From positions 62,001 through 126,000 of the forward strand of contig JAIOQZ010000023.1 of NCBI GenBank assembly GCA_021108395.1: DNA of 64,000 bases, written 5' to 3'. Under the pieces are notes generated by a model that had not been told where the DNA came from, did no database searches, and worked only from the letters and a program-made list of their open reading frames with translations. Below are positions 2,130-62,862 of the stretch, piece after piece. Positions within the stretch are counted from its first letter, which is position 1. Each line of letters opens with the position of its first letter. Source of the stretch: Candidatus Cloacimonadota bacterium. GTDB taxonomy: Bacteria > Cloacimonadota > Cloacimonadia > Cloacimonadales > JAIOQZ01. The translations under genes and the position numbers were made by a program.

Positions 2130-3839
2130 ATGAAGCGGCTGGCCATCACTACCGGCGATCCGGCAGGCATTGGACCGGAGATTGCCGCAAAAGCGCTGTG
2201 CTTTCACGACCTGCAGCCCGGCATCGCCTATGTGGTCTATGGCGAGCTGGACCCCTGGCGGGGCGGCCACGCTTTCACCCCGATCGAGCGCATCGAGCAG
2301 GCGACAGAGCCAGGCCGCATCTATCTGATACCCATTGGGCGTGAGAACGTGGCCGTCGGACAGGCCACGCCTGTGTCGGGCGCTGTGTCGCTGGACATCC
2401 TGCGGCGTGTGCTGGCCGACCTTACCGCCGGCCATTTGCATGGTGTGGCCACCTGTCCGGTGTCCAAGCACGCTATCCGCTGCCACGACCGTGGTTTCAT
2501 CGGCCACACAGAGTTCTTCGCGGGTGACGATCACGAGGTGGTGATGACCTTCTGGGGCGAGCATTTCAATCTGGCGCTGCTCACCACCCACATGGCGGTG
2601 AGCGAGGTGGGGCGCTCGCTCACAGAAGAGATGGTGACGGCCAGGCTGCGGGTGCTCTGGCGCGAGGTGAGCCGCTATGTGCAGGGACCGCATATGGCTT
2701 TGCTGGCGGTCAACCCGCACGGTGGCGAGCAGGGCGCTTTTGGCGAAGAAGACCACCTGCTGGGCCGGGTGTTGGGCACGTTGTCCGCCGAGGGCATCGA
2801 CATCGCCGGTCCCTTCCCCGCAGACTCCTTCTTTCGCTATCACGCCGCCGACTATGACTTTGTAATCAGCGCTTACCATGACCAGGGGCTTATCCCGTTC
2901 AAGATGGTGCATGGCGAGGAAGGCGTGAACGTGACTCTGGGACTGCCCTGGGTGCGCACCTCGGTGGATCATGGCCCTGCCTATGACATTGCCGGGCAGG
3001 GCAGGGCAAACGAGAAAAGCCTGGTTGCCGCGCTGGTTCGCGCCGAGCAGATGCTCGACCCCGGTTGCGCCGCACCTCGTCGCATCTACAGCGCCTTTGC
3101 CGAGCACTACGACCGCTATATGGAACACGTCGATTACGACGCCTGGGTAGCGCTTGTGCTCGGACGGTTCAACCGTCTGCATCGGCGCTCTCCGCGACGA
3201 GTGATCGAGCTGGCCTGCGGCACCGGCAACATCGCCACGCGACTGGTGCGCAAGGGCATCGAGGTCGAGGCGAGCGACTTTGCGCCCGCTATGCTGCTGG
3301 AGGCCTCACAGAAGAACTTCGCCCCCCTGCTGCATCGCGCCGATATGCTGGCGCCGCTGCCGCCGGAGCGCTATGACCTCGTGCTGCTGCTGTTCGACAG
3401 CCTCAACTATCTGCGCACCGATCAGGATGTCGCTACGCTGCTGGAGCAAACTTACGGTGGGCTCGAGCCAGGCGGTGTCTTTATCTTCGACATTTCTACC
3501 CTGCACAACTGCCGCGAATATTTCGACGGCTTCATGAACATCGACGAAGGGCCGGGGTTTTACATGGTTCACACCAGCGAGCATGAACCCGCCCAAGACC
3601 GCCAGACCAACCATTTCACCATCTTTACGCGCCGAGGCTTTCTTTTCGAGCGGCGTGATGAATACCACACACAGCACATCTTCCGGGTGCAGCAGGTTCT
3701 CGACTCCATCGAGGATTCGCCCTTCAAGCTGTGCGGCGTCTATGCGCTCGACAAAGACAACAACCTTGCCGATACAGACCCTGAACGCCTTGATGAGAGC
3801 TTCACGCGGCTGTTCTTTGTCTTGCAGAAGGAAAACTGA
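2130..3839 (+). CDS. pdxA: PdxA 4-hydroxythreonine-4-phosphate dehydrogenase fused to a class I SAM methyltransferase
   Basis: One 569-codon frame without interruption. Residues 1 to about 312 are PdxA, the NAD-dependent oxidative step of DXP-dependent pyridoxal phosphate synthesis: [28 protein letters not shown] and [13 protein letters not shown], with the metal-site histidines. Residues about 318-569 are a Rossmann methyltransferase beginning [13 protein letters not shown], with motif [11 protein letters not shown] near residue 358 and a [10 protein letters not shown] strand. No good start codon or ribosome binding site lies at the junction. The methyltransferase substrate is unknown. The gene starts one base after pyrE and its stop overlaps the rnhB start (TGATG), so all three should be cotranslated. 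Confidence 0.9.
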
Positions 3840-4444
3840 TGCTATATGCCGCCGAGCATGAACTGCACCGCGAGCATGGCTTGCTTGCTGGAGTGGACGA
3901 AGCGGGACGCGGCCCCCTGGCCGGACCTGTGGTGGTGGCGGCGGTCATTCTCGACCACGACAAGCCCATCGCGGGACTGAACGACTCGAAGAAGCTCACC
4001 GCCGCACGCCGCGAAGCCCTCTACGACGCTATCCTGGCCAGCGCGCTTGACTGGGAGATTGTCGAGATGAGCGCCGGCGAGGTGGACGAGATGAACGTGC
4101 TGCGCGCCACGCTCGAGGGCATGCGCCGCGCCGTGCTGGGTCTGCACCCCGCGCCCGCGCTTGTGCTGGTGGACGGTAATCAGTTGCCCGACCTGCCGTT
4201 TCCCGCCCGCGCCGAGGTGAAGGGTGATGGCCGCTTCGCCAGCATCGCCGCCGCCAGCATCCTCGCCAAGGTATGGCGCGACCGACTGATGGTGGCCATG
4301 CACAGCCGCTATCCGCTCTACGGCTTCGACCGCCACAAAGGCTACGGCACGCAGGCACACCGAGACGCCATAGCCGCGCACGGCATCTGCCCGCAGCATC
4401 GTAAGACGTTCGGGCCATGCGTGGAGATGAGGGTGAGGTTGTAG
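3839..4444 (+). CDS. rnhB: Ribonuclease HII
   Basis: Cleaves the RNA strand of RNA-DNA hybrids and misincorporated ribonucleotides. Family motifs are [15 protein letters not shown] (catalytic D20 and E21), [17 protein letters not shown], the [17 protein letters not shown] helix and [14 protein letters not shown]. The length (201 aa) is normal. The start overlaps the previous stop. The last nine codons (from TTCGGGCCATGC to GGGTG) lie in a sequence repeated at 6029-6055 after the TPR gene. The present C-terminus (MRVRL) was therefore probably created by an insertion, and the original end (MRVSI) is stranded downstream. Confidence 0.95.
4409..4435 (+). repeat. Direct repeat, left copy, inside the 3' end of rnhB
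   Basis: A 27-bp sequence, 22 bp of it identical (GCCATGCGTGGAGATGAGGGTG, 4414-4435), is repeated at 6029-6055 with a single mismatch. Here it encodes the rnhB C-terminus. The two copies bound the AT-rich TPR gene, which is the arrangement left by site-specific or homologous insertion into a gene end. Confidence 0.85.
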
Positions 4445-4477
4445 AAATACAGTGAGTTGGGGGATGCAAGAAAGTGC

Positions 4478-4506
4478 TTGACAACATACGATTAGCTAAA
4501 TCAATT
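4478..4506 (+). promoter_or_regulatory. Possible promoter of the TPR gene
   Basis: A perfect TTGACA (4478-4483) is followed after 17 bases by TCAATT, a poor -10. The same TTGACAA hexamer-plus-one occurs upstream of several other genes here. It lies inside the inserted segment, so the cargo may carry its own promoter. Confidence 0.3.
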
Positions 4507-4526
4507 CTTATGTTATGGAGGGCAAA

Positions 4527-6017
4527 ATGCGTATTTTGATGATTGTTGTTGCTGCTGTGATGATTTCAGGTTTGTTGGCAGTTGAAGAACCATTAGATAT
4601 TTCTTTTGAAATATACAGTGATACAACAATTTCAGCAATTATACCTGTGGGACAAGATAGTATTCCTATAACCATGAAGATAACTGTTCCAGACAGGATG
4701 AAAACAGATAGGGAGTTGTTAGAACACGCTCAGGAACAATTCGACAGAACGATTGGGTCAGCAGGTTTGTTCGCAAATGGTTATAATTTCATGATTACGG
4801 CAGCTACTTTCATCTTCATTATTGTGACTTCTATTATCGGGATAATGGGATTCAAGAGTTACAAAGATGTTAAAAAAACCACAGATGAATTACTAAAAAG
4901 TAAAACTGATCATGACAAATTGATTTCGGAGCTTAAGGGAAGGAAAGAAAGCAGAAGCACACAAAATCTGTTAAAGAAATATCGAGATGACTTTGATAAT
5001 CTAACACTTGTGATTGATGTAGCGAATAATGAAATTGCCAGCCTATCAGAAGTCGATGCAATTAAACTGGATGATTTTCTCAGAATAACAGATATATTGC
5101 GAGTATGGGATGATCAATTTACAGAGCAAGATTATTCGATACGTTGGAAAGCATATATCTATCTTAAGCAATTTCGATTTGCATTAAGAGAGGCTCTGGA
5201 AGGTATTGAAAGAGGCAAAAATGGAGAAAAATGGTATGAACGCCTGTCACAAACTTATACTATACTCAAGCAATATACTCAAGCTTTAGATGCAATAGAC
5301 AAAGTTCTTGAAATAAACCCCAACAACATAAATGCTTGGTATGCAAAGGGACTGATTCTCCGTGAAGATGAACAAGTTAAAGAAGCTCTACTTGTTATGA
5401 AGCATGTTACATATCTATCGCCTCAAATGTATCAGGCATGGGTAAGCATCTCAAACTACTACAGTAGATTGCGGGAGTTTGATAAGGCCGAAGAAGCTGG
5501 ACGTCAGGCATTAGATATTAGACCAGATGATGCAAAAGCACATTCCAATCTTGGCTTTTCGCTACTTAATCAACAGAAATATGAAGAGGCTCAGGTGGAG
5601 TATGACCGTGCGATATCATTCGACTCTAATCTAAAGGATGCATTGCAAGGGAAAGGAACTGCTCTAGCAAACTTGGGTAATTATGATGAAGCTCTAGAAG
5701 TTTTCCGTTATCTACTCGAACAGGATTCTTCTATATCAATCAATTGGAGTAATCTAGCTTACATTTACTTTAAACAGGATGATATCGAAACATCAAAGCA
5801 TATGCTTGAAATTGCCTTAAACCTGGACTCAAAAAATTTCACTGCATGGTATAATTTAGCACGACTTTATTCAAAGAAGAAACAAAAAATACCAATGTTG
5901 AACAGTCTGCGATGGGCCATTGAGCTAAATAAAGATTACAAAAGCGCTGCTCGTAAGACCGAGGACTTCAAAGCCTACAGTAAAGACTCTGACTTCATCG
6001 CGTTGACGAAGGAGTAA
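4527..6017 (+). CDS. Membrane-anchored TPR-repeat protein on the AT-rich insertion
   Basis: About 496 aa. It has an N-terminal signal-like hydrophobic segment (residues 1-18), a short exported domain, one membrane helix (about 88-108, ITAATFIFIIVTSIIGIMGF), a charged coiled-coil linker (about 112-140) and then tandem tetratricopeptide repeats to the end, such as ALDAIDKVLEINPNNINAWY and AHSNLGFSLLNQQKYEEA. The start is placed at the second in-frame ATG because GGAGG (4517-4521) overlaps the first codons after the upstream ATG at 4515. TPR arrays bind proteins; the partner is unknown. Codon use is unlike the neighbours, pointing to transfer. Confidence 0.8.
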   Translation: MRILMIVVAAVMISGLLAVEEPLDISFEIYSDTTISAIIPVGQDSIPITMKITVPDRMKTDRELLEHAQEQFDRTIGSAGLFANGYNFMITAATFIFIIVTSIIGIMGFKSYKDVKKTTDELLKSKTDHDKLISELKGRKESRSTQNLLKKYRDDFDNLTLVIDVANNEIASLSEVDAIKLDDFLRITDILRVWDDQFTEQDYSIRWKAYIYLKQFRFALREALEGIERGKNGEKWYERLSQTYTILKQYTQALDAIDKVLEINPNNINAWYAKGLILREDEQVKEALLVMKHVTYLSPQMYQAWVSISNYYSRLREFDKAEEAGRQALDIRPDDAKAHSNLGFSLLNQQKYEEAQVEYDRAISFDSNLKDALQGKGTALANLGNYDEALEVFRYLLEQDSSISINWSNLAYIYFKQDDIETSKHMLEIALNLDSKNFTAWYNLARLYSKKKQKIPMLNSLRWAIELNKDYKSAARKTEDFKAYSKDSDFIALTKE

Positions 6018-6028
6018 CACGTTTGTCC

Positions 6029-6055
6029 TTCGCGCCATGCGTGGAGATGAGGGTG
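6029..6055 (+). repeat. Direct repeat, right copy (stranded rnhB 3' end)
   Basis: Matches 4409-4435 with one mismatch. Read in the rnhB frame it gives FAPCVEMRV followed by Ser-Ile-stop at 6056-6064, a plausible original RNase HII terminus. It lies directly before the ribosome binding site of the rhomboid-like gene, so the original order was probably rnhB followed by that gene. Confidence 0.8.
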
Positions 6056-6089
6056 TCTATCTAATCGTAAATATCTCGCTGGAGGCCAT

Positions 6090-7211
6090 ATGAGTTATTT
6101 CTGTCCGAACGACGAAACCAAGCTTGAGCCAGTCACCAAACACGGTGGCAGGACGTTCATTTGTCCCAAGTGCAAAGGCGAGATGATCAACATCGCCGTG
6201 CTGAAACGCAAGCCGGAGCTTCGCGGCAGCGCAAACGCAATCTGGGATGAGATGAAGCTGCACATGAACGAGAACGGCAATGAATGCCCTCAGTGCGAAG
6301 GCAGGATGGCCCGGGTGCAGGCGCCCGGCACAACGCAACTGGTTGACGTCTGCAAGCCCTGTCAGTCCATCTGGCTGGATCGCGGGCAGTTCGAGCTGTT
6401 GCCGCGCAATATCCTGGCGCCGACTGAGGACACTGAGGCCGCTGAGGAAGAATTTTGCCCCGAATCGCTGGCGGCGCTCAGTCTATTGCAAGTTGAGCCG
6501 AAGGAGGAGAAACCGGAGCTGATGGGCGACATGGCGTGCCCCAGGCCCAGAGGCTGGAAATTAATCCCCGCGTTGCTGCTGCTGCCGGTGAAGGACGACG
6601 ACGCAGAGTTTATCGACAGGCCATATGTAACCTGGCTCATCGCGGCGCTGTGCACGTTTCTCTTTGTGTTCTTCTTCCGCGACCGCTATCCAATCACAAA
6701 CGAGTGGGGCTTCCTGATTGACGATCCGTTCCGCAAGGGCGGATTGACCCTGCTCACTTCCTTTTTCGTCCACAACAACATTTTCCCTTTCATTTTCAAT
6801 ATCTATTTCCTACTCGTCTTCGGCGGTAACGTCGAAGAATATCTGGGGACTGTTCCATACATAATTCTCTTGCTTCTCAGCCATCTTACAGGCCTGCTGA
6901 TTCACGCGACTCTGAGCGCCGTCCATACCATCCCGGCGGCCGGCCTCGGCGCCGGCGTCGCCGCGATCATCGTTTACTATGTAGCTCTGCACCCGCAGTC
7001 ACACCTTCGGGTTATTCTTTTCTACTTTATCCCTATCAGATTCAAAGCCTACTGGTTTCTCATTGCCTGGGCCGTGTTCCAGCTATCCTTCGCTCTTTCG
7101 CAGATGGGTGGCGCCACGGGCATTGTCAACGCGCAGGTGAATGTCGGGGGCGCTTTGATCGGTTTCCTGTGGGCTCTTCGCAACCGTAAGGTACAACTGA
7201 GAAAGGAATAA
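6090..7211 (+). CDS. Zinc-ribbon rhomboid-family membrane protein, catalytic residues lost
   Basis: 373 aa. The N-terminal 105 residues hold zinc-ribbon Cys pairs (C5; C25xxC28; C66xxC69; C88xxC91 with the SIWLDRGQFE ending typical of the zf-TFIIB group). After an acidic linker, about six membrane helices (from residue 180) follow the rhomboid layout, including HNNIFPFIFNIYFLLVFGGNVEEYLG. The serine of the rhomboid GxSxG site is Gly287 (AAGLGAG) and the histidine of the last helix is Asn351 (VNVGGALIG), so protease activity is not expected. A GGAGG precedes the ATG. It probably binds membrane clients as a pseudoprotease; this is inference. Confidence 0.85.
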   Translation: MSYFCPNDETKLEPVTKHGGRTFICPKCKGEMINIAVLKRKPELRGSANAIWDEMKLHMNENGNECPQCEGRMARVQAPGTTQLVDVCKPCQSIWLDRGQFELLPRNILAPTEDTEAAEEEFCPESLAALSLLQVEPKEEKPELMGDMACPRPRGWKLIPALLLLPVKDDDAEFIDRPYVTWLIAALCTFLFVFFFRDRYPITNEWGFLIDDPFRKGGLTLLTSFFVHNNIFPFIFNIYFLLVFGGNVEEYLGTVPYIILLLLSHLTGLLIHATLSAVHTIPAAGLGAGVAAIIVYYVALHPQSHLRVILFYFIPIRFKAYWFLIAWAVFQLSFALSQMGGATGIVNAQVNVGGALIGFLWALRNRKVQLRKE

Positions 7212-7213
7212 GA

Positions 7214-7294
7214 CAGGGGTTTCGCCCCTGAACCCCACTTACCTTTTTCGAGAAAAAGGTAAGACCAAAAAGCTTTGACGGATACTGCGTATCC
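7214..7294 (+). repeat. Family I structured repeat, copy B
   Basis: Follows the pseudo-rhomboid stop. It holds a CAGGGG/CCCCTG hairpin (7214-7230), an 11-bp stem CTTACCTTTTT-CGAG-AAAAAGGTAAG (7238-7263), the linker ACCAAAAAGCTTTGAC and GGATAC-TGC-GTATCC (7280-7294). Compared with copy A, the stem differs by a compensated pair (C-G in A, T-A in B), which preserves base pairing. Confidence 0.8.
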
Positions 7295-7391
7295 TGTGCA
7301 CAAAATATTGTATTACAGTACATAGGAAACGAAGATTCCAGTCATGTAGCGAAGCGGAGTGACCCTTTTAGAGAAGTTTTTGATCCAAACC

Positions 7392-37251: not shown

Positions 37252-40218
37252 CTACTTCAGCAACAGCATCTTGCGCACCTGGCTCACAGAGCCGGACTGC
37301 AAGCGATAGAAATATACGCCGGAAGCGCAGCCACCGGCTGTCCAGGTGACGGTGTGCTCTCCGACCTGCAAGTGTTCATCGACAAGCGTGGCCACGCTTC
37401 TCCCGCGCACATTGTACACGCTCAGTTCCACATGTGCGTTGGCGGGAATGTTGAAACGGATGGTCGTCGTCGGGTTGAAGGGATTGGGGAAGGCGGGGTG
37501 GAGGGCGATGCCGGACGGCGGCGCGGGGATAGCCTCGTCGTCCTCGACGCCGACAGGAACGTCCGTCAGGTATGGGTAGCCGCAATTAATGCCGAGCTCG
37601 ATGCTCCAGTAGTCCTCGGTACTGGTGTCGTCGAAGGGGTTGCCAACAAAGTCCCAGGGTGCGCCCAGCCCGGGTGTTGCCAGGCTGGTGTAGGTGGCCA
37701 CGTTCTGCATCTCGGCGGTTGTCTTGCCGGCGCCGCCGGCGCTGGTGCTCTGACCGGAGGTTTCGATGTCCCAGAAGCAGCTGTTGACAAGGGAACTTTC
37801 ACTATTACACCCCACCAAACCACCGATGCAATTCGCTGTTCCGCTCACGGTGCCGGCGCTATAGCAGTTATCTATGGCGGAATCGCAATTCCAGCCCACC
37901 AGGCCGCCGATGTATTCAATTCCTGTCACCGTACCGGTGCTGTAGCAGTTGGTGGTTGTGGAGTTTAGATTACTCATCCCCACCAGGCCACCGACAAGGA
38001 CGTCCTCGCCGTTCGCATTGCCGTTACTATAGCAGTTGTTCATTGAAGAATCAATCTGATAGCCCACAAATCCACCGATGTAACCATATCCCGCCACATT
38101 GCCGGCGCTGTAGCAGTTAGTAGTCGTCGAGCCAAGATTGCTCATCCCCACAAGTCCGCCGAGGAAAGAATCTATCCCGCTCACATCGCCTGTGCTATGG
38201 CAATTGTCAATAGAAGAACCAGCTTGGTACCCCACCAATCCGCCAATCACACGATCACCGGTAACATTGCCTGTGCTGTGACAGTTTACAATAGGGCAGT
38301 CCAGAATTTGCCCCGCCAGGCCACCACATTTAAAATATCCATCAACACTTACACTGCTATGGCAATCACTGATGGGTGACATCTCAGTCCGTCCAATCAA
38401 TCCACCGATGTATTCCCCCGGGCTGCTCACACTACCGGTGCTGTAGCAGTTAGTAATGCCTGCCCCCGAGTAATTGCATCCCACCAGGCCACCGACATAA
38501 TTATCCCCAGTCACATCGACATTGGTTACACCCAGATTCTCAATGGTTGCAGAGATCATACGTCCAAACATACCCTGAGAGTTTGATGTTGGTCGATTAA
38601 TATACAAACCATCTATCGTGTGCTCTTGTCCATCGTAGGCGCCGGAAAATAGATAGTTGCTATTAATGCCAATCGGCGAAAAGCCCTCGCCGTCGTTCCA
38701 GTTCTGGGTGTCGGTGGCGTCTATGTCTGCTGTCTGGATGAAGTGGCTGTCCCAAGAGGTGTTGTTAGTGCTTACCCACAGAAGGTTGTCGAGCGTGGCC
38801 ACCTGGTAGGGGTCGGTCGCGGTGCCGGAACCTGCGGGTTGTACGCCCTCAGAAGGATTATGAGCATACCCCTGCCATTCGAGGAACGGGTAGCCGCCGT
38901 TTTCTTCGTAGTTCAGTCCCCAGAAATCGTCGGCGCCGTTGGCCGTTTCTTCCATGAAGTCCCAGCCGGCATCGGTGTATGTGGCCAGCGTTTGCATCTC
39001 TGCGGTGGTGTGCCCGGTACCGCCGGCGCTTGTGGCTTGCCCTGATGTTTCCATGTCCCAGAAGGAGTTGATTACTTCGTTCAGGTTCACTCCCACCAGA
39101 CCGCCGACGAGAGCATTTCCGCTCACACTGCCAGTGCTATAGCAGTTGTTGATATTGGCGTCTTCTCTGTTTTTTCCCACAAGGCCACCAATCAAGCTAT
39201 CTCCCTCCACATAACCGGCGCTATAGCAGTTGCTGATGGTGGTAGAATGATTCTCTCCCACCAAACCACCGGTGAGACGACTTTGACCAGTGATATTACT
39301 GGTACTGTAACAGAACTCCATTGTTGACAAACAGGAATATCCCACTAATCCGCCGATACAAACAGCAACAGAATAAGGCTGAGTAGCAACAACATCCCCG
39401 GTACAATAGCAGTTACTCATGCTACTAAATATATCCAAACAACCCAGAAAGCCGCCGACATGCGAATAACCGCTCACACTGCTGGTGCTGTAACAGTTGT
39501 CGATGGTTGACTCACAAGCATTTCCCGCAAAACCGCCTGTATTCGAGCCTCCGACAACGCTTCCTGTGCTGAAACAGTCGCTGATTGTTGAATCGTAGCA
39601 AAATCCTATCAAACCACCAGTGTAATAATTGGACTCATCGGGATAATAGCCAACCACAGTGCAAGCACTGTAGCAGTTGTCAATAATGGAGAAACACGCA
39701 CCCCCCATCAAACCACCAATCTCGGACATATTTCCAGTTATGCTACCTGTAGTGAAACAATCGCTGATTGTTGAATTCTCGCATAGCCCCACCAAGCCAC
39801 CGAGACTGCCGTGGCCGCTCAAATCGACATTTGTAACACAGAGATTCTCAATAGTTGCATTGCCCATGTATCCCCAGAGACCTTGTTCACATGAATTGGG
39901 TCGATTAATATACAAACCATCTATCGTGTGGTTCTGGCCATCGTAGGCGCCGGAAAATAGATAGTTATAATAAACGCCAATCGGCGAAAAGCCTTCCCCG
40001 TCGTTCCAGTTCTGGGTGTCGGTGGCGTCTATGTCCGCTGTCTGGATGAAGTGGCTGGCCCAGCAACTGTCGGTCGTGCTCACCCACAGCAGGTTGTCGA
40101 GCGTGGCCACCTGATAGGGGTCGTCCTCGGCGCCGGAGCCAATTGGTTGAACGCCGTCGGCAAGCAGCCCGGCGCAGCAAAAAGCGAGAAGTATTGGCAG
40201 TAGCGTTTTGCGCAACAT
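37252..40218 (-). CDS. Secreted GLUG-repeat protein with internal duplication and sorting tail
   Basis: 988 aa. Signal peptide (LLPILLAFCCAGLLADG). Two large halves each start with DPYQVATLDNLLWVST, IDATDTQNWNDGEGFSPIG and GAYDGQ-HTIDGLYINRP. Each continues as tandem GLUG-type repeats (GGLVG...I-NCYSTG-V-G), a beta-solenoid found in surface adhesin-like proteins, and ends with FWD-ETSGQ-TSAGG and TTAEMQ. The C-terminus is the sorting module: AFPNPFNPTTTIRFNI, LSVYNVRGRSVATLV and RKMLLLK. GGAGG before MLRKTLL fixes the start at 40218. Likely a surface-exposed binding protein. Confidence 0.88.
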   Translation of the reverse strand: MLRKTLLPILLAFCCAGLLADGVQPIGSGAEDDPYQVATLDNLLWVSTTDSCWASHFIQTADIDATDTQNWNDGEGFSPIGVYYNYLFSGAYDGQNHTIDGLYINRPNSCEQGLWGYMGNATIENLCVTNVDLSGHGSLGGLVGLCENSTISDCFTTGSITGNMSEIGGLMGGACFSIIDNCYSACTVVGYYPDESNYYTGGLIGFCYDSTISDCFSTGSVVGGSNTGGFAGNACESTIDNCYSTSSVSGYSHVGGFLGCLDIFSSMSNCYCTGDVVATQPYSVAVCIGGLVGYSCLSTMEFCYSTSNITGQSRLTGGLVGENHSTTISNCYSAGYVEGDSLIGGLVGKNREDANINNCYSTGSVSGNALVGGLVGVNLNEVINSFWDMETSGQATSAGGTGHTTAEMQTLATYTDAGWDFMEETANGADDFWGLNYEENGGYPFLEWQGYAHNPSEGVQPAGSGTATDPYQVATLDNLLWVSTNNTSWDSHFIQTADIDATDTQNWNDGEGFSPIGINSNYLFSGAYDGQEHTIDGLYINRPTSNSQGMFGRMISATIENLGVTNVDVTGDNYVGGLVGCNYSGAGITNCYSTGSVSSPGEYIGGLIGRTEMSPISDCHSSVSVDGYFKCGGLAGQILDCPIVNCHSTGNVTGDRVIGGLVGYQAGSSIDNCHSTGDVSGIDSFLGGLVGMSNLGSTTTNCYSAGNVAGYGYIGGFVGYQIDSSMNNCYSNGNANGEDVLVGGLVGMSNLNSTTTNCYSTGTVTGIEYIGGLVGWNCDSAIDNCYSAGTVSGTANCIGGLVGCNSESSLVNSCFWDIETSGQSTSAGGAGKTTAEMQNVATYTSLATPGLGAPWDFVGNPFDDTSTEDYWSIELGINCGYPYLTDVPVGVEDDEAIPAPPSGIALHPAFPNPFNPTTTIRFNIPANAHVELSVYNVRGRSVATLVDEHLQVGEHTVTWTAGGCASGVYFYRLQSGSVSQVRKMLLLK
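38591..38848 (-). repeat. Intragenic duplication, second copy
   Basis: About 255 bp nearly identical to 39899-40155, encoding the start of the second half of the GLUG protein. The high nucleotide similarity points to a recent duplication or ongoing gene conversion. Confidence 0.8.
39899..40155 (-). repeat. Intragenic duplication, first copy
   Basis: Encodes the start of the first half of the GLUG protein, just after the signal peptide. Paired with 38591-38848. Confidence 0.8.
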
Positions 40219-40251
40219 GGTGTCCTCCAGCCCTCTGTAGTTTCTATGAAT

Positions 40252-40280
40252 AGGGTAGAGCAACAAACGCGCCAAGTCAA
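40252..40280 (-). promoter_or_regulatory. Sigma-70-like promoter of the GLUG protein gene
   Basis: On the minus strand TTGACT (40280 to 40275), 17 bases, TACCCT (40257 to 40252), with the ATG 34 bases further on at 40218. A TTGACA for the divergent glycosyltransferase lies at 40327-40332 without a clear -10. Confidence 0.4.
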
Positions 40281-45380: not shown

Positions 45381-47616
45381 ATCTATTGCACAGAAAGTGC
45401 TTCAAGCCCTCGAAAAGCAGCCGCATCAATCGTTTCGCATCAAAGAACTCGCTGCCCTTGCGCGGGTGAAAAAGCACAATTACCGCGAGCTGAAAGACAC
45501 TCTGATCGAGCTGGTCAAGCAGGAACGCATCCAGCGTCATAACAAGACCTATCGCCACAAGCGAAACGCAGCGAAGGCACAGTCCGCGAAAAAATCCGCC
45601 GACTCCACCCCACAGAGCAAAGCCGACAGCAAACCGCGAAACACGCTGATGGTCGAGGGCAGACTGGACGCCACACCGCTGGCGCGCAATCACGCCTTCG
45701 CCTTCGTTATCTGCGAGGGCGACGAGGACGATGTTTTCGTCAGCGAGGAAGACCTGGGCGATGCCCTGCACAACGATCGCGTTCTGGTTGAACTGGCCTA
45801 CCGTCGCGGCAAACGACGGCACGGCATCATCCGCGAGGTGGTTAAGCGCGCTCGGTCGCGCTTTGTGGGCAACCTCGAAAAGCACCGCCAGGATGTCTAT
45901 TTCGTCGCCGATGACCCCAGGGTTCACCGCACTTTCCTCGTCCGCGACCTTCTGGGCGCTCGAACTGGCCAGAAGGTGATGCTGAATGTGGTCAATTGGG
46001 GCCTTCAGGCGCAACACGCCAGGCCTGCGGGCGATGTTGTGGAAATCCTTGGCGAAGCCGGCGATCCGCAGGTGGAGGTGCTGGGCGTCATTCGCCAGTA
46101 CGACCTGCCGCTCGAGTTCCCCAGAAAGGTGCTCGCCGAAGCGGACGCCCTGCCCGACAGCCCTCCGGCAAAGTCCATAAAGGGTCGGCTCGACCTGCGC
46201 CAGACCACCAGCTTCACCATCGATCCTGTCTCGGCCAAGGACTTCGACGACGCGCTCTGCCTCGAAAAGACGGCGGACGGCTGGCGGCTGTATGTGCACA
46301 TCGCCGATGTGGCGCACTGGGTTCGTCCCGGCTCGCTGCTGTTTCGGGAGGCCGAGAATCGCGGCAACAGCTTCTATTTTCCCAAAACTGTTATCCCCAT
46401 GCTGCCACAGAAGATATCCAACAAGCTGTGCAGCCTGCGTCCGCACGAAGACAAGCTCTGCCTCACTGTCATAAGCGAGATGGACAGCAGGTTCAACATC
46501 CGCAAGCAGAACGTCCACGAGACAGTCATCCGCAGCTCTGCGCGCCTTACCTACGAAGAGGTTGACGACCTGTTCGCCGAACGCGAGCACGAGATACCGG
46601 ACGACGTGGTGAGCATGCTTCGTGGACTGCGCAAGCTTTCGGACACCCTGAACAAACGCCGTCGCGCCCGCGGCTGCCTCTGGTTCGATATGCCCGACAC
46701 CGAGTACCAGTTCGACGACAAAGGATACCTCACCGCGCTGGGGCGCAGCATGGAGACCGAGTCGCACAAGCTGGTCGAGAACTGCATGCTCATCGCCAAC
46801 GAATACACGGCCACCATCCTCACCAAAAAAGCGCCGGCAACCCTCTATCGCATCCATGAAGACCCGGTCGTAGAGAAGGTAAGAAAAGCTGTGGACACCA
46901 TTCAGTGCAATGGATTTAAGGTTGAATGGCATGATGATGTTAGTAAGACTCTGCAATCCATACTGATGGGTGGACAAGGCCGTGACTTTCACCGCGTATT
47001 CGACCCGCTGCTGCTGCGCACTATGATGAAAGCGCGGTACAGCACAGACCACATCGGTCACTTCGGGCTGGCAATGGACACCTACACCCATTTCACTTCG
47101 CCCATACGCCGACTGTGCGACCTCATCGTGCACCTACAGATTAAGCAGCATGTGCTGGGTGGCCGGGGGGCATCGTTCTCAACGGCGCGGTTGCGTGAAC
47201 TGGCCGAGCGCAACTCCGGCCAGGAACTGCTGGCGCAGGAAAGCGAGCGCGAGGTGAACCGCGTCAACGAACGGCAGTTCATCCGGCGGCACATCGGCGA
47301 CGAGTTCGAGGCGCTCATCGTGCATATCACACGCGCCACCATCATCTTCGATCTCGACGAGTACCCCGTGCGCGGCGTCATTCGCACCGCCGACCTCGAA
47401 GGCGACCACTACCGCTTTCTGCCCGACCATGTGCGCCTGGTGGGACGTCGCACCGGCAGCGTCTTCAAGCTGATGGATCGTGCCCGCGTCCGCATCGAGC
47501 GGGTGGATGACGAAGTGTTCCTCTCGCTGGTCGAACCACCTAAAGAGAAGCCGGAAATCCGCAGCAAAAAACGAGGGCGCAAGCGGAAAAAGAAACAACA
47601 ACAGGAGAAGAAATGA
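45373..47616 (+). CDS. rnr: Ribonuclease R
   Basis: A processive 3'-5' exoribonuclease that digests structured RNA. 747 aa: an N-terminal winged-helix region (RIKELAALARVKKHNYRELK), cold-shock domains, the RNB catalytic domain (TIDPVSAKDFDDALCLEKT with the metal-binding aspartates; YTHFTSPIRRLCDLIVHLQI), an S1 domain (FEALIVHITRATIIFDL) and a lysine-rich tail. Its start overlaps the HisKA-like gene by 8 bases and its stop overlaps the following lipoprotein ATG. Confidence 0.96.
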   Translation: MNKSIAQKVLQALEKQPHQSFRIKELAALARVKKHNYRELKDTLIELVKQERIQRHNKTYRHKRNAAKAQSAKKSADSTPQSKADSKPRNTLMVEGRLDATPLARNHAFAFVICEGDEDDVFVSEEDLGDALHNDRVLVELAYRRGKRRHGIIREVVKRARSRFVGNLEKHRQDVYFVADDPRVHRTFLVRDLLGARTGQKVMLNVVNWGLQAQHARPAGDVVEILGEAGDPQVEVLGVIRQYDLPLEFPRKVLAEADALPDSPPAKSIKGRLDLRQTTSFTIDPVSAKDFDDALCLEKTADGWRLYVHIADVAHWVRPGSLLFREAENRGNSFYFPKTVIPMLPQKISNKLCSLRPHEDKLCLTVISEMDSRFNIRKQNVHETVIRSSARLTYEEVDDLFAEREHEIPDDVVSMLRGLRKLSDTLNKRRRARGCLWFDMPDTEYQFDDKGYLTALGRSMETESHKLVENCMLIANEYTATILTKKAPATLYRIHEDPVVEKVRKAVDTIQCNGFKVEWHDDVSKTLQSILMGGQGRDFHRVFDPLLLRTMMKARYSTDHIGHFGLAMDTYTHFTSPIRRLCDLIVHLQIKQHVLGGRGASFSTARLRELAERNSGQELLAQESEREVNRVNERQFIRRHIGDEFEALIVHITRATIIFDLDEYPVRGVIRTADLEGDHYRFLPDHVRLVGRRTGSVFKLMDRARVRIERVDDEVFLSLVEPPKEKPEIRSKKRGRKRKKKQQQEKK

Positions 47617-56391: not shown

Positions 56392-58608
56392 TTACTTGAG
56401 CAACAGCATCCGTTGAGTGTGGCTCGTGCCGCCTGCTTCCATGCGCAGCAGGTAAACCCCCGAAGCACAGCCTTCGGCCTCCCAGGTGACGGTGTGCTCG
56501 CCGGCGTCGCGGGGTTCGTCCACCAGCTGGGCCACGAAGCGGCCACGCACGTCGTAAACGCACAGTGTGGTGTGGGCTGGTTCTGTCAGGCTGAAGGCGA
56601 TGCTCGTGCTGGGGTTGAACGGATTGGGCCGGTTGCCCAGCAGTCGCGGCGCGGTGAACGGCGCTTCGTCGCCGCCGGTGGCGCTTTCGCCCCAGTGCCA
56701 TAGCTGCAACGTGCCGGTGACGTGCTGCGGGTTGGCGATGGCGCAGCCATTGTCCAACCAGGCTGCCCAGGTTTGCCCTACCGGTATGTTAAACACGTCC
56801 TCTCCGCTGGTGGACTGATACTGCGTGTGGAAGCTGTCGAACAGCATTGGCAACTGGTAGAACAGGTAGGAGTCGCCGGGGCCGACGAACCAGTTGACCG
56901 AGCCACCCTCGCCGGCGTGTTTGTAGAACAGCGGTCGCGTGCCTGTCTCGTCGATGTCGTCCCAAGTGACGATGCCGCTGACGACCTGCCCCACCGTCTC
57001 GTATTGCACGATGAATTTCCAGTCGTCAGTGTCGTCGTCCGGCTCGTTCACGGGGTTATACTCAGGCCAGGGCATGTCACCGGCGATGGGCGCTAAAAAG
57101 GTGTATTCGCCGCCGGGCGGCATGTTCTGAACCAGCAGGGCGTATTCGTCTTCGTCCACCGGGTAGTGGCCCAGTGGCGTCGAGACGTGCATGTAGTAGT
57201 CGCGGGCGTCGCCGACGATGAACACGCAGATGCCCTCGTTGTCGGTGAAGCCGACCATGTCGCTGCGCAGCGATCCGTCCATGATGGCGAGGATGATGCG
57301 TGCGCCGTCGATGGGCCGGTCGAACCAGTCATCGACGTGTATCTCGAGGGTGCCGACGTCCTCGGAGTAACGCTCGGTGACGCTGGTGAGGAAGCCGTCG
57401 GAGCGGATATCGAACGCGGTGCCCAGCACTCTGCCCCAGCCGTTTTCGTACACCAGCGGATTGTTGATGTAGCCGTTCACCGGCTCCCACGCCACCCATT
57501 CGCTCTCCCAGAACTCGTTCCAGGTGTGGTCGTTGCTGATGGTGAGGATGCTGGTGCAGGGAATGAGCGCCGTGCGGGCGGCGGCGGCGGTGATGTCGGC
57601 GTGTTCGCCGCAGCGACCGATGTGCTTGCGATAGATGCGCACCGGCTGATGCGGGCGCTCGTTGTTCGAGGTGAACGACATCGAATCGTTCACCCACTGC
57701 TGCACCGCCATGATGGCGTTGTCTGTGCTGCCGTCGCGCGCCCACATGTACTGCACGCCGTCCAACATGTCGGACAGCAGCGGGTAGTTGTCGTCGGCGT
57801 GAGTCCAGAACCACTCGCGCCAGAACTCGCCGTCCGCGTCGATGTTGTTCACATGCGTGTTGTTGTTCTCGATGACGTCAGGGTCGATGTAGGTGGGGAT
57901 GTCGTCGGTAATCTTGGGATGCACCAGGCACCAGTAGTAGATGTCGCGGGGGACGTCTATCTGCTCCACCTCGCCGTCCTCGTTCAGGCGGGTATAGCGC
58001 GTGGTTGACCAGTAATCGTCGTCTGGCCAGGCGCCCGTGTCGATGATCTCGACGTAGTCCAGCGCCGTGTCGATCTCGTACAGCAGCTCCGCATTCTGCA
58101 CGAACAGCTCAGGGAAGCTCCACTCGCTGCCGAAGAACTCGGTGCTGGTGTGCGCCACGCAAAAGGCTATCTCGTCCACCAGCGGGTTGTCGGCGTCGTT
58201 GATGATGCCGGCCCAGGTGTTCTGGTCAACGCTGCTGAGCTGGCAGAGCACGTTGGCGAGGTCGGTGCGCAGCCACGCGGGAGCGCGCTGAATGGCCTGG
58301 TCGGACGCATAGGTGAGGCCGTCGGCGCTCTGCACCAGCGACGCTATGCTGTTTTGCCAGCGCAGGCCCACATGCCCGCCGGCGTGCAGCAGCACATCCA
58401 GCGGCCATTCTTCGGCGATGTACCATTCCTCGCGGTCGAGGGGTTGCGGGTGGGCTTCCGGCTGGGGGGTGGTTTCCTCCGGCGCCACGTAGGTAGGCGC
58501 CTGCTCTCCGGCATACGCTCCCGGCGGCAGCGGCAGGGATTGCGTGAGGGGCGTGGCGAATGCGCTAACAAAGGATGCTACAAGAACACATGCAATAAGG
58601 AGTCTCAT
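56392..58608 (-). CDS. Secreted transglutaminase-fold protein with sorting tail
   Basis: 738 aa. Signal peptide (LLIACVLVASFVSAFA). A long N-terminal region leads to a transglutaminase-like core with Cys in IGRCGEHADITAAAA and His in NDHTWNEFWESEWVAWEP; Glu stands where the third catalytic Asp is usual. It is probably a protease or amidase of that fold. Beta domains follow (VDDWFDRPIDGARI), then the tail NRPNPFNPSTSIAFSL, VYDVRGRFVAQLV and RMLLLK. The start is the ATG at 58608 after AGGTATAGACAA; the frame extends upstream into the DUF3883 gene. Confidence 0.85.
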   Translation of the reverse strand: MRLLIACVLVASFVSAFATPLTQSLPLPPGAYAGEQAPTYVAPEETTPQPEAHPQPLDREEWYIAEEWPLDVLLHAGGHVGLRWQNSIASLVQSADGLTYASDQAIQRAPAWLRTDLANVLCQLSSVDQNTWAGIINDADNPLVDEIAFCVAHTSTEFFGSEWSFPELFVQNAELLYEIDTALDYVEIIDTGAWPDDDYWSTTRYTRLNEDGEVEQIDVPRDIYYWCLVHPKITDDIPTYIDPDVIENNNTHVNNIDADGEFWREWFWTHADDNYPLLSDMLDGVQYMWARDGSTDNAIMAVQQWVNDSMSFTSNNERPHQPVRIYRKHIGRCGEHADITAAAARTALIPCTSILTISNDHTWNEFWESEWVAWEPVNGYINNPLVYENGWGRVLGTAFDIRSDGFLTSVTERYSEDVGTLEIHVDDWFDRPIDGARIILAIMDGSLRSDMVGFTDNEGICVFIVGDARDYYMHVSTPLGHYPVDEDEYALLVQNMPPGGEYTFLAPIAGDMPWPEYNPVNEPDDDTDDWKFIVQYETVGQVVSGIVTWDDIDETGTRPLFYKHAGEGGSVNWFVGPGDSYLFYQLPMLFDSFHTQYQSTSGEDVFNIPVGQTWAAWLDNGCAIANPQHVTGTLQLWHWGESATGGDEAPFTAPRLLGNRPNPFNPSTSIAFSLTEPAHTTLCVYDVRGRFVAQLVDEPRDAGEHTVTWEAEGCASGVYLLRMEAGGTSHTQRMLLLK

Positions 58609-58612
58609 TTGT

Positions 58613-59791
58613 CTATACCTCTTTTGTTTTGTAGTTAATGTGATAGTTAACAGTTTGCTTACAGAAGTGATTACCGAAATTACAGCTTCTGCATCGCCAT
58701 ATCTTTGGTGCGTTGAAAACTCTGAAAACGAAGTAGAACCAGTATTGATCACCAAGCTCTATCGATTTCGCAAGCTCATTTGCAGTTATATAGAAGCCAT
58801 TGCGAAAATCTGAACTGGTTGTTGTTTTCACTTCGATATATTTCGTAGTCCCATCATGTTCAGTAATTTTTATATCATATCCAAGATGATCTTCTCGTTC
58901 TGACACGTGATCAATGCGTTGATCTACATCTGTGCAACCGATTTTCTTCAATCTTATCGCTTCTTTTCGAACAACAATATCTTCACCCAACTTCCCAATT
59001 TCCTGAAGCCTCAAATTATGTTTTTGCCAGTCACGCTTACCTTTTGATCGAGAATAGCGATTCATTTGAGTAGGTATCGGAGGACTGTCTAAGAATGTAG
59101 CGCCTAACTCGGGCAAGTCTTTAGATAAAATTGGTGCTTTACGATTGTGAAGCTTGGATAAGTCGATAATTGAACGTGTAAAGGCGTATATAGAAATATC
59201 TAATCCATTGTCTTCGATCAACTCTTGATAGAAATTATTTATTTCACGCTGCAAAAGAAAGAGAGTACCTTTAGTAATATTTAACTCTATATCCAAGAAA
59301 AAAGAATAGCATTTAAGATAATTTTCTGAAAAGAGATTAATGTATTGATCCGGGTAATACAAAAAAAGAAGCTTATGTTTAAATGTTGGAGCTAATCTGT
59401 TAGCTCTGATAGCTTCATCATTTTTATCTCTGGAAGCAATTAGAAGATCGTAGATTTCGTCTTTAACGGCAACGAAAACATCTGTTAGATTTGCCCCCCA
59501 TCTCCGTGCAAATATAAATTTCCCGTCTGCTTTTCTGCAATAAACACCAAATTTTGGCGCACGCCCTCCCTGCATACTTCCCAGTCTATTTGTTTCATAT
59601 TCTAATTTGTAACAGAAAGAATTGTGATTGTTTTTGCCTATAATATATTCATCTATAGAGAGTTCCTTTATCTGCTCTAAAGGGAATGTTTCAACAAATG
59701 ATTTACGAAGTGCTTCTGATTCAGCCCACTCCTCTGCCTTATCCTTTTGCCACTTCTTTGCATTAGCTGCTATTGCATCAACTTTGCTCAC
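58613..59791 (-). CDS. McrB-N-like domain fused to a DUF3883 nuclease-like domain
   Basis: 392 aa, markedly AT-rich. Residues about 35-185 match the region that precedes the AAA+ module in some McrB-type restriction proteins (SIDEYIIGKNNHNSFCYKLE, GGRAPKFGVY, FKHKLLFLYYPDQYINLFSE). Residues about 265-365 are DUF3883, with LGEDIVVRKEA, a GYDI strand (Asp306) and YIEVKTT (E320-V-K322), a PD-(D/E)xK-like nuclease signature. No ATPase or methylase is adjacent. The GTG start is eight bases after the upstream stop and follows GGGGGGGG. Likely a horizontally acquired defence-type protein; the function is inferred. Confidence 0.8.
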   Translation of the reverse strand: MSKVDAIAANAKKWQKDKAEEWAESEALRKSFVETFPLEQIKELSIDEYIIGKNNHNSFCYKLEYETNRLGSMQGGRAPKFGVYCRKADGKFIFARRWGANLTDVFVAVKDEIYDLLIASRDKNDEAIRANRLAPTFKHKLLFLYYPDQYINLFSENYLKCYSFFLDIELNITKGTLFLLQREINNFYQELIEDNGLDISIYAFTRSIIDLSKLHNRKAPILSKDLPELGATFLDSPPIPTQMNRYSRSKGKRDWQKHNLRLQEIGKLGEDIVVRKEAIRLKKIGCTDVDQRIDHVSEREDHLGYDIKITEHDGTTKYIEVKTTTSSDFRNGFYITANELAKSIELGDQYWFYFVFRVFNAPKIWRCRSCNFGNHFCKQTVNYHINYKTKEV

Positions 59792-61152: not shown

Positions 61153-62862
61153 TCACGGCATCAGCACGAGACGCCTGGCGATATCCTGCCCCGGCCCCTC
61201 GAGACGATAGATGTAAACGCCTGCCGGCAATCGCCGCCCCAGCGACAGCTCGGGATTCCACGCAGCGACGTGAGCGCCGGCGTCCTGCCAGCCGTTCACC
61301 AGGGTGTCCACCCGGCGACCGCGAACGTCATACACCCGCAAGCGCACATGGCCTCCCCGCGGGATGCTATACTCGATGACAGCCTGCCGGTGAAAGGGGT
61401 TCGGGTAGCTCTGGCGCATATAGCTCTGCTCGTTCTGCTCCTGGCCAACCTTCACCAGGGCAGTTTTCTCTATCAAGTCCTCCCCGTTATTGACCGCGAG
61501 AGCCACCGAATAGATTCCTGGCTGCGTGTAGGTGTGCGCCGGATTCATGTCGTCAGAGTCGGGCACGCCGTCCCCGTCGAAGTCCCACGACCACGACCAG
61601 GGCTGATGTCGGGAGCGGTCTGTGAACTGCACTTCGAGCGGCGCGATGCCCTGCACTGGCGAGGCCGAGAAATCGGCGACAGCCGTAGAAGGCAACTCCG
61701 CCTGCGAGAGAAACGCGAGCGCCTGAGCGCCCAGGCTGTCGGCTGCGGCCAGCATGGCGGCGTCATCGGGCGGAACGATGCGCCAGGCGCACAACAGCGA
61801 GTCTGCCTGGTCGAGCAAACCAGCCTCGAAGAGGGCGAGCTCTGCCAGCCAGCCACCGCCGGAAGCGTCAACGAGCTTCCAGGTGTCCAGCCAGGTGACG
61901 ATGAATGGGAAGTCGAACAAACGCTGCTTCAGGTTGATTGCGAAGAAAGTGAGCTGTGAGATTTGCTGGCCGCTGTCGATGGCCGCGGCGCTGGGGACTG
62001 CGCCTGTGGGCCACGCCGGCAGCATCACCGATGTCAGGGGATTGCCGGGCATTACCCACAATGTGGACAGCCAGGCCGACTCGCTCGGCAGAACGCCCTC
62101 GATCACCGCCGCCGAAACGGTTGTGTTGCTGCAAATGCTCCAGTCGGAGTCGATGTAGCCAAAGGGGCGGCCAGGCGCCCACTGGTGCTGATAGGGCAGC
62201 TCGAAGGGGGCGGATTCGCTGTCGGAGAGGTCGCGCAGCATCTGTCGGGCAAGGGTGTCGTGGCGCAGGCTGTCACCGGCTATGAGCGTCTCGACAATGT
62301 TGGTGGCGCGTTCGTATCTCGCCGTGCCGATGCTGCCGCCACCCGTAAACGAGAAGTTGGCGCGCACGATGTAACCGCTTGCGGTGTCTGCCGTGTCATA
62401 GCGGACATAGCTGGTTGCCCCTGTCTCGAATATCGCCGCGCCACCGCCCGCGTCGATAACCCCGAAGTTGGCCAGTGTGCTGCGTCCGGTGATGTTGGTG
62501 CTGTCGAGCAGGGCGACGAAGTCGTCGATGTTGGCGCACTCTGCCAATGCGAGCTGCATGAGTTCGCCGTTGCCGTAGCGGGTTTCTCTGAGATCGGACG
62601 AGTAGGAGTTGAGAATTGCGAATCCGTGCTCGTTCACGCCCATCCAGGCGCTGGGGTTGCCGGGGTCGGCAATGGTGACGTAGCGCCAGCCTTCGTCAGG
62701 CACATAGCGCAAGCCGTTATGAACGCCGCTGGCGTCGCGGGTTTTCCACAGCAGGGGGCGTCCACTGGCAGTGGCGCGGCCATCGGCCACACCGATGGTG
62801 CATGCAGGGGCGATGCCCCAGAGGCCTAACAGCAACAGAACAAGCGGTGTCTTGCGTCGCAT
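61153..62862 (-). CDS. Secreted Ntn-hydrolase (C45/C69-like) with PKD domain and sorting tail
   Basis: 569 aa. Signal peptide ending IAPA, followed at once by Cys21 in CTIGVADGRATASGRPLLWKTRD, the pattern of N-terminal-nucleophile hydrolases (penicillin acylase or peptidase C45/C69 type). Cleavage after APA would free the catalytic cysteine. The hydrolase fold runs to about 300 (GNPSAWMGVNEHGFAILNSY). A PKD domain comes next (WSWDFDGDGVPDSDDMNPAH), then the tail (YPNPFHRQAVIEYSIP, VYDVRGRRVDTLV, RRLVLMP). Probably an exported amidase or acylase; substrate unknown. Confidence 0.82.
   Translation of the reverse strand: MRRKTPLVLLLLGLWGIAPACTIGVADGRATASGRPLLWKTRDASGVHNGLRYVPDEGWRYVTIADPGNPSAWMGVNEHGFAILNSYSSDLRETRYGNGELMQLALAECANIDDFVALLDSTNITGRSTLANFGVIDAGGGAAIFETGATSYVRYDTADTASGYIVRANFSFTGGGSIGTARYERATNIVETLIAGDSLRHDTLARQMLRDLSDSESAPFELPYQHQWAPGRPFGYIDSDWSICSNTTVSAAVIEGVLPSESAWLSTLWVMPGNPLTSVMLPAWPTGAVPSAAAIDSGQQISQLTFFAINLKQRLFDFPFIVTWLDTWKLVDASGGGWLAELALFEAGLLDQADSLLCAWRIVPPDDAAMLAAADSLGAQALAFLSQAELPSTAVADFSASPVQGIAPLEVQFTDRSRHQPWSWSWDFDGDGVPDSDDMNPAHTYTQPGIYSVALAVNNGEDLIEKTALVKVGQEQNEQSYMRQSYPNPFHRQAVIEYSIPRGGHVRLRVYDVRGRRVDTLVNGWQDAGAHVAAWNPELSLGRRLPAGVYIYRLEGPGQDIARRLVLMP

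Follow-up and report, generated by a model that had tools for sequence, protein, structure and literature searches.

An AT-rich TPR gene between an intact rnhB and a displaced rnhB tail in a Cloacimonadota genome, possibly the scar of an integrase-type insertion

In the genome of a Candidatus Cloacimonadota bacterium, we observe an intact ribonuclease HII gene (rnhB) that is followed by an AT-rich segment of 1,584 bp carrying a single TPR gene and, at the far end of that segment, by a displaced fragment of an rnhB 3' end in the same orientation. The explanation we prefer, at somewhat less than an even chance, is that this segment entered by a single crossover with the resident rnhB tail, probably catalyzed by an integrase-type enzyme that acted in trans or was lost afterwards. 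Such an insertion is partly supported and is the best of several readings, the chief and serious rival being that the displaced fragment is the relic of a second rnhB. The window, by which we mean the whole stretch of 64,000 nucleotides analyzed here, corresponds to positions 62001 to 126000 of its contig (contig C4) in an assembly of 2,886,526 bp and 62 contigs, with a listed completeness of 98.31% and a contamination of 1.44%.

Results

The rnhB gene (positions 3839 to 4444, plus strand) is complete and encodes a full RNase HII of 201 amino acids (Pfam RNase_HII, 9.3e-40; NCBIfam RNase HII, above the NF000595 cutoff). Its start is overlapped by the stop of the upstream neighbor, identified by family searches as a pdxA-methyltransferase fusion (2130 to 3839, plus strand). 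The PdxA and methyltransferase domains share a single ORF of 569 codons, and the same fusion, with 571 codons, is seen in the only genome of the same family (G001). The downstream neighbor is a rhomboid-domain gene with a zinc-ribbon N terminus (6090 to 7211, plus strand; Pfam Rhomboid, 2e-14; Zn_ribbon_TFIIB, 1.7e-11), whose product is matched in 4 of 58 genomes; one of these four is the organism's own, and the matches in the other three are weak or partial.

We observe that rnhB, together with the fusion upstream of it, stands in an inherited gene order. An rnhB match was obtained in 51 other genomes, and of the 29 best-scoring loci among these relatives, 27 keep the order methyltransferase-rnhB, and pdxA is seen farther upstream in 20 of the 29, within flanks of at most 1.5 kb. 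G001 keeps a Memo-like gene, pyrE, the pdxA-methyltransferase gene, and rnhB. The gene that follows rnhB there encodes a rhodanese-domain protein on the other strand and the TPR gene is absent from that place, so the TPR gene does not occupy one position in all relatives. Since G001 belongs to another genus and its rnhB is 51% identical to that of the window, it does not amount to an empty-site control. Given that those 27 loci share the methyltransferase-rnhB order, a foreign origin of rnhB is not supported. The closest RnhB in the genome_contigs scan is gammaproteobacterial, with at most 62% identity (best segment) versus 57% for the best order-level relative, and this similarity counts against dismissing a foreign rnhB.

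A direct repeat links the end of rnhB to the region just before the rhomboid gene. The preliminary description had reported 27 bp with one mismatch, 22 bp of them exact, in the last codons of rnhB and again after the TPR gene, and both the repeat and its placement are borne out: the copies lie at 4409 to 4435 and 6029 to 6055, 1,620 nt apart, with the exact 22-nt core at 4414 to 4435 and 6034 to 6055. The repeat is also longer than described, as ungapped extension brings it to 36 nt with 31 of 36 positions identical (copy 1, 4400 to 4435, within rnhB; copy 2, 6020 to 6055; both on the plus strand). This pair is not due to chance. With as many as 3 mismatches allowed, 100 shuffles of the window contained nothing that matched the 22-mer, and exact direct repeats spaced 100 to 2,000 nt apart reached maximum lengths of 12 to 16 nt in 60 Markov-1 windows. 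The assembly (2.89 Mb) has no further occurrence of the 22-mer beyond these two, even when 3 mismatches are tolerated, so it is not a dispersed repeat. The mismatches between the copies are clustered, with a shuffle P of 0.0016 for a 22-nt run within the 45-nt tails, a stretch that was chosen after the fact. For each of the 9 amino acids that the copies have in common, the codon is the same in both, and the rarer choices AGG (8% of Arg) and CCA (16% of Pro) are among them.

An assembly misjoin at the 22-mer, bringing together separate sites from a single genome or from two strains, would be conceivable in a 62-contig assembly, in which an exact repeat of 22 nt may mislead short-word assembly. 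We nevertheless regard it as improbable, as both copies are on the same contig, flanked on either side by complete genes and with their ends in frame, and the 22-mer occurs only twice in the assembly.

Other repeats in the window are of different kinds. A dispersed repeat built around the near-palindrome GGATACTGCGTATCC is present at 1188 to 1238 and at 7253 to 7303, and, with 2 mismatches allowed, its 21-nt pattern occurs at 28 sites of the assembly (17 forward, 11 reverse; none with a reversed-pattern control); it is possibly a REP-like element of this lineage. On the minus strand, an ORF of 1,007 amino acids (37252 to 40275) contains exact direct repeats of 16 to 38 nt at spacings of about 180 to 1,360 nt and is an internally repeated protein gene.

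Read in the rnhB frame, copy 2 ends in MRVSI and a stop, as the preliminary description had it; what that description overlooked is that the 14 codons of this copy form a diverged RnhB tail, RLSFAPCVEMRVSI-stop (6020 to 6064, plus strand). This displaced, same-orientation 3' fragment of rnhB begins 2 nt past the stop codon of the TPR gene, and its own stop lies 25 nt upstream of the rhomboid start codon. For comparison, a tail profile was built from 42 RnhB sequences of relatives and other genomes, 40 of which contributed a tail word (HR, any residue, usually S or T, and then an aromatic residue) and two of which lack one. The five codons to the left of the core in copy 2, RLSFA, score 12.2 bits against this profile and those of copy 1 score 13.3 bits; in the six frames of the window, 8 of 127,972 five-codon words reach 12.2 bits, both copies counted (P of about 6e-5). 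At the nucleotide level, 9 of the 14 positions to the left of the core match between the copies, which is equaled by 0.14% of the window's 14-mers. Since the left flank of copy 2 fits the RnhB-tail profile, we see no short target duplication here; judged by its sequence, copy 2 is a homologous tail of 14 codons rather than a duplication of 22 to 27 nt. The same finding makes a plain target duplication unlikely and turns the relic of a second rnhB into a real rival.

According to that rival, which we consider unlikely on balance but serious, a diverged copy of rnhB, arising from duplication or from a related lineage, once preceded the rhomboid gene and was later deleted except for its last 14 codons. 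Either an rnhB-TPR pair would have arrived upstream of it or the TPR gene would have come between two rnhB copies, with the deletion ending just past the TPR stop. The RnhB-like character of copy 2 to the left of the identity block favors this history, as do its changes from K to L, T to S, and G to A, all to residues found in other RnhB tails, and its start immediately after the TPR stop codon. However, the 22-nt block is identical at every base while both of its sides have diverged, and independent genes should differ at silent sites unless they were homogenized. Nor was a second rnhB found in the organism's own genome (one match), and none stands at this place in G001.

The segment between the copies (4436 to 6019) has a GC content of 37.0% against a window mean of 56% and holds one long ORF, on the plus strand, which encodes the TPR protein. 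The preliminary description of an AT-rich, one-gene segment with no recombinase inside it and no terminal inverted repeats is therefore accurate. We find no integrase gene and, by the ORF list and family search, no transposase ORF in the insert. The region from 4380 to 6100 has eight scattered inverted pairs of 10 to 13 nt, one of which (4487 to 4498 and 6058 to 6069, 11 of 12 positions) roughly brackets the insert with neither arm at an insert end. Matches to promoters and terminators in the insert are no more frequent than in shuffles. Transposition with target-site duplication could produce direct repeats around a compositionally different segment, but it is disfavored and in our estimate very improbable, given that the 36 nt of the repeat form an imperfect, homologous tail rather than a short exact duplication, and that the transposase and the terminal inverted repeats are both missing.

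The TPR gene (4515 to 6017, plus strand; ORF list, Pfam and NCBIfam searches) starts at 4515 or, more likely, at 4527, behind a GGAGG noted by eye. Its GC3 of 0.32 compares with 0.82 for rnhB and 0.71 for the rhomboid gene. The product combines TPRs with a C-terminal TPR_END_plus domain (NF047558), and its N terminus appears, by eye, to contain signal-like and hydrophobic stretches. A paralogue of the same plan and higher GC (GC3 0.55) lies on contig C13 of the same assembly, from position 45974, and is 57% identical to the TPR protein over the last 56 residues and about 23 to 33% identical elsewhere. Taken alone, the N-terminal 236 residues have no match among 57 other genomes, and a profile built from two N-terminal sequences is matched in 4 of the 124 phylum genomes, the organism's own included. 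In G001, a homologue adjoins the gene for elongation factor G (EF-G), not rnhB. With a paralogue in the same genome, few matches in the phylum, and the G001 homologue next to EF-G, the TPR family therefore belongs to this lineage, with copies at differing loci, and the higher-GC paralogue means that it is not clearly foreign.

Searches for a mobile source of the TPR gene gave no candidate that held. Eight IMG/VR stretches matched a pattern and none was confirmed, and the 2 phage and 202 plasmid records that match are all below 60% identity; none of the 2 phage matches and the 20 plasmid matches listed starts before residue 135, and they lie mostly within the TPRs.

The low GC of the insert suggests a recent arrival and does not prove one, with an AT-richer relative as perhaps the source; the two G001 contigs seen have 40 and 43% GC. 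A second AT-rich stretch among GC-rich genes of the same window (58601 to 59700, 27 to 42% GC per 100 nt) has no bracketing direct repeat longer than 11 nt, and low GC alone is thus no distinguishing mark of the rnhB locus. Together with that stretch, we compared the TPR paralogue on C13 and an AT-rich gene on contig C2. None of the three is bracketed by a direct repeat longer than 11 nt, so that only the rnhB locus, among the four places compared, has such a repeat.

We surveyed 124 rnhB loci, comprising 29 from relatives, 15 from genome_contigs, and 80 from IMG/VR (the best 80 of 311). A recognizable rnhB ORF was present in 106, the other 18 being dropped, and each was scanned for any stretch of the last 100 nt plus 20 nt that recurs exactly on the same strand. 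None of the 106 has an exact tail repeat longer than 14 nt, for relatives' flanks of at most 1.5 kb, several of them cut by contig ends, so that distant or diverged tail fragments would escape. A 14-nt recurrence was seen in 4 of the 106, and a within-gene control gave 14 to 16 nt in 6 of the 106. Even with 2 mismatches allowed, a 20-mer of the core is absent from all 123 other genomes of the phylum, and IMG/VR contains no exact copy of it. Likewise, no other element or alternative cargo using the same core and no empty site were found among the 124 phylum genomes or, by exact match, in IMG/VR. With the core unique and the tail repeat seen at none of these loci, rnhB as a general insertion hotspot is not supported.

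The preliminary description had proposed that an insertion rebuilt the rnhB 3' end, that rnhB might be a hotspot or new attachment site, and that an integrase acting in trans should be sought. Its first part fits the intact rnhB and the displaced tail; its second gains nothing from the survey, in which neither an empty site nor other cargo appeared. As for the integrase, this genome, for which the assembly is 98% complete, encodes only two tyrosine recombinases, both XerC/D-like (304 and 316 amino acids) and situated among housekeeping genes. Both pass the general NF001399 cutoff and match the XerC and XerD models below the stricter cutoffs. A serine recombinase (PF00239) had no match in the genome, and the same search was positive in 10 of 14 control genomes.

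Without a site-specific enzyme, a RecA-type homologous or homology-assisted single crossover of a nonmobile fragment or circle bearing an rnhB tail and the TPR gene could have had the same outcome. The 22-bp identity block, the failure to find an integrase, and the seemingly singular nature of the event (0 of 106 other loci) all speak for it. However, about 22 bp is close to the lower limit for efficient homologous recombination, and we think this route rather unlikely.

Discussion

From the arrangement at rnhB we infer a circle, a crossover point, an enzyme, and a direction of the event. Incoming DNA, circular or repeated, would have brought in the TPR gene along with an rnhB tail of diverged sequence, and a crossover within the common 22-bp identity block would have exchanged the right halves of the two tails. 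The resident rnhB would thereby have kept its body and received its final two codons and stop codon from the incoming DNA, while its original last codons (SI and a stop) would have moved downstream as the displaced fragment beside the rhomboid gene. Before the event, the resident tail would have run from RKTFG to SI and a stop. A block of exact identity inside diverged tails would be what a crossover between diverged sequences needs.

Several observations argue for this crossover: the uniqueness of the 22-nt block, the clustering of mismatches, the RnhB-like left flank, and the identical codons for the common residues, as well as the inherited order around rnhB, the location of the G001 TPR homologue at EF-G, and the contrast in GC3 between the TPR gene and rnhB. 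Against it count the failure to find a mobile integrase, an empty site, a circle, or a second element, the absence of a tail repeat from the other loci surveyed, a TPR family that is not clearly foreign, and three comparison segments that lack repeats. In a textbook attP, moreover, the left arm need not resemble the target. The left arm here does resemble rnhB, and survival of a second rnhB's tail explains this resemblance more simply.

Related scars are described in the literature. Integrases at tRNA genes leave an intact target, foreign-looking DNA, and a displaced 3' fragment on the same strand (PMC4383910), and the same signature, with reconstitution of the gene, is described at some protein genes (PMC12884075). 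Because the geometry at rnhB matches these scars, an integrase acting in trans, or since lost, appears by analogy to be the likeliest enzyme for the crossover. The likeness to islands of the Islander type, at tRNA, tmRNA, and some protein genes, lies in the complete target on one side, the displaced same-strand 3' fragment on the other, and foreign-looking DNA between them; unlike these, the present segment is 1.58 kb long, has no integrase, and has rnhB as its target.

Two further systems come close in other respects. The microcin H47 island of Escherichia coli offers a precedent, as it has no recombination genes of its own and recombines in identity segments of imperfect direct repeats (PMC3191183); the rnhB insert is likewise small, devoid of recombination genes, and set between imperfect direct repeats. 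However, that island measures 13 kb, carries a microcin system, and has had its excision and integration detected experimentally. SGI1 and its relatives insert at the trmE 3' end and share with our locus the 3' end of a housekeeping protein gene as the place of insertion, but they are resistance islands mobilized by conjugative plasmids (PMC8409611), whereas the rnhB insert has one gene, no mobilization functions, and another target.

For rnhB itself, open-licence full text in PubMed Central yielded no paper pairing rnhB or RNase HII with integrase, attachment-site, or ICE insertion terms. Papers in that library that join rnhB with genomic islands list it, describe it, or report it as diverged, and never, in the passages retrieved, name it as an insertion target. 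This absence is the silence of one open-licence library and not proof of novelty.

A more far-reaching version of the insertion would make the segment a one-gene, integrase-less cassette that spreads among related bacteria with the rnhB 3' end as its attachment site, repairs the gene with its own tail, and borrows a recombinase, which might be a host XerC/D-like protein or that of a helper. We judge this version improbable.

Overall, the locus probably adds one more case to a type of event that is already known. Should it be the relic of a second rnhB, it would caution that an imperfectly duplicated gene end may pass for an attachment site. Should it instead be a site-specific scar, rnhB would be added to the protein genes that serve as attachment sites, and the signature of a regenerated target with a displaced fragment would occur in single-gene, integrase-less segments, which the Islander filters drop by size and integrase content, candidates below 2 kb or without an integrase being discarded (PMC4383910).
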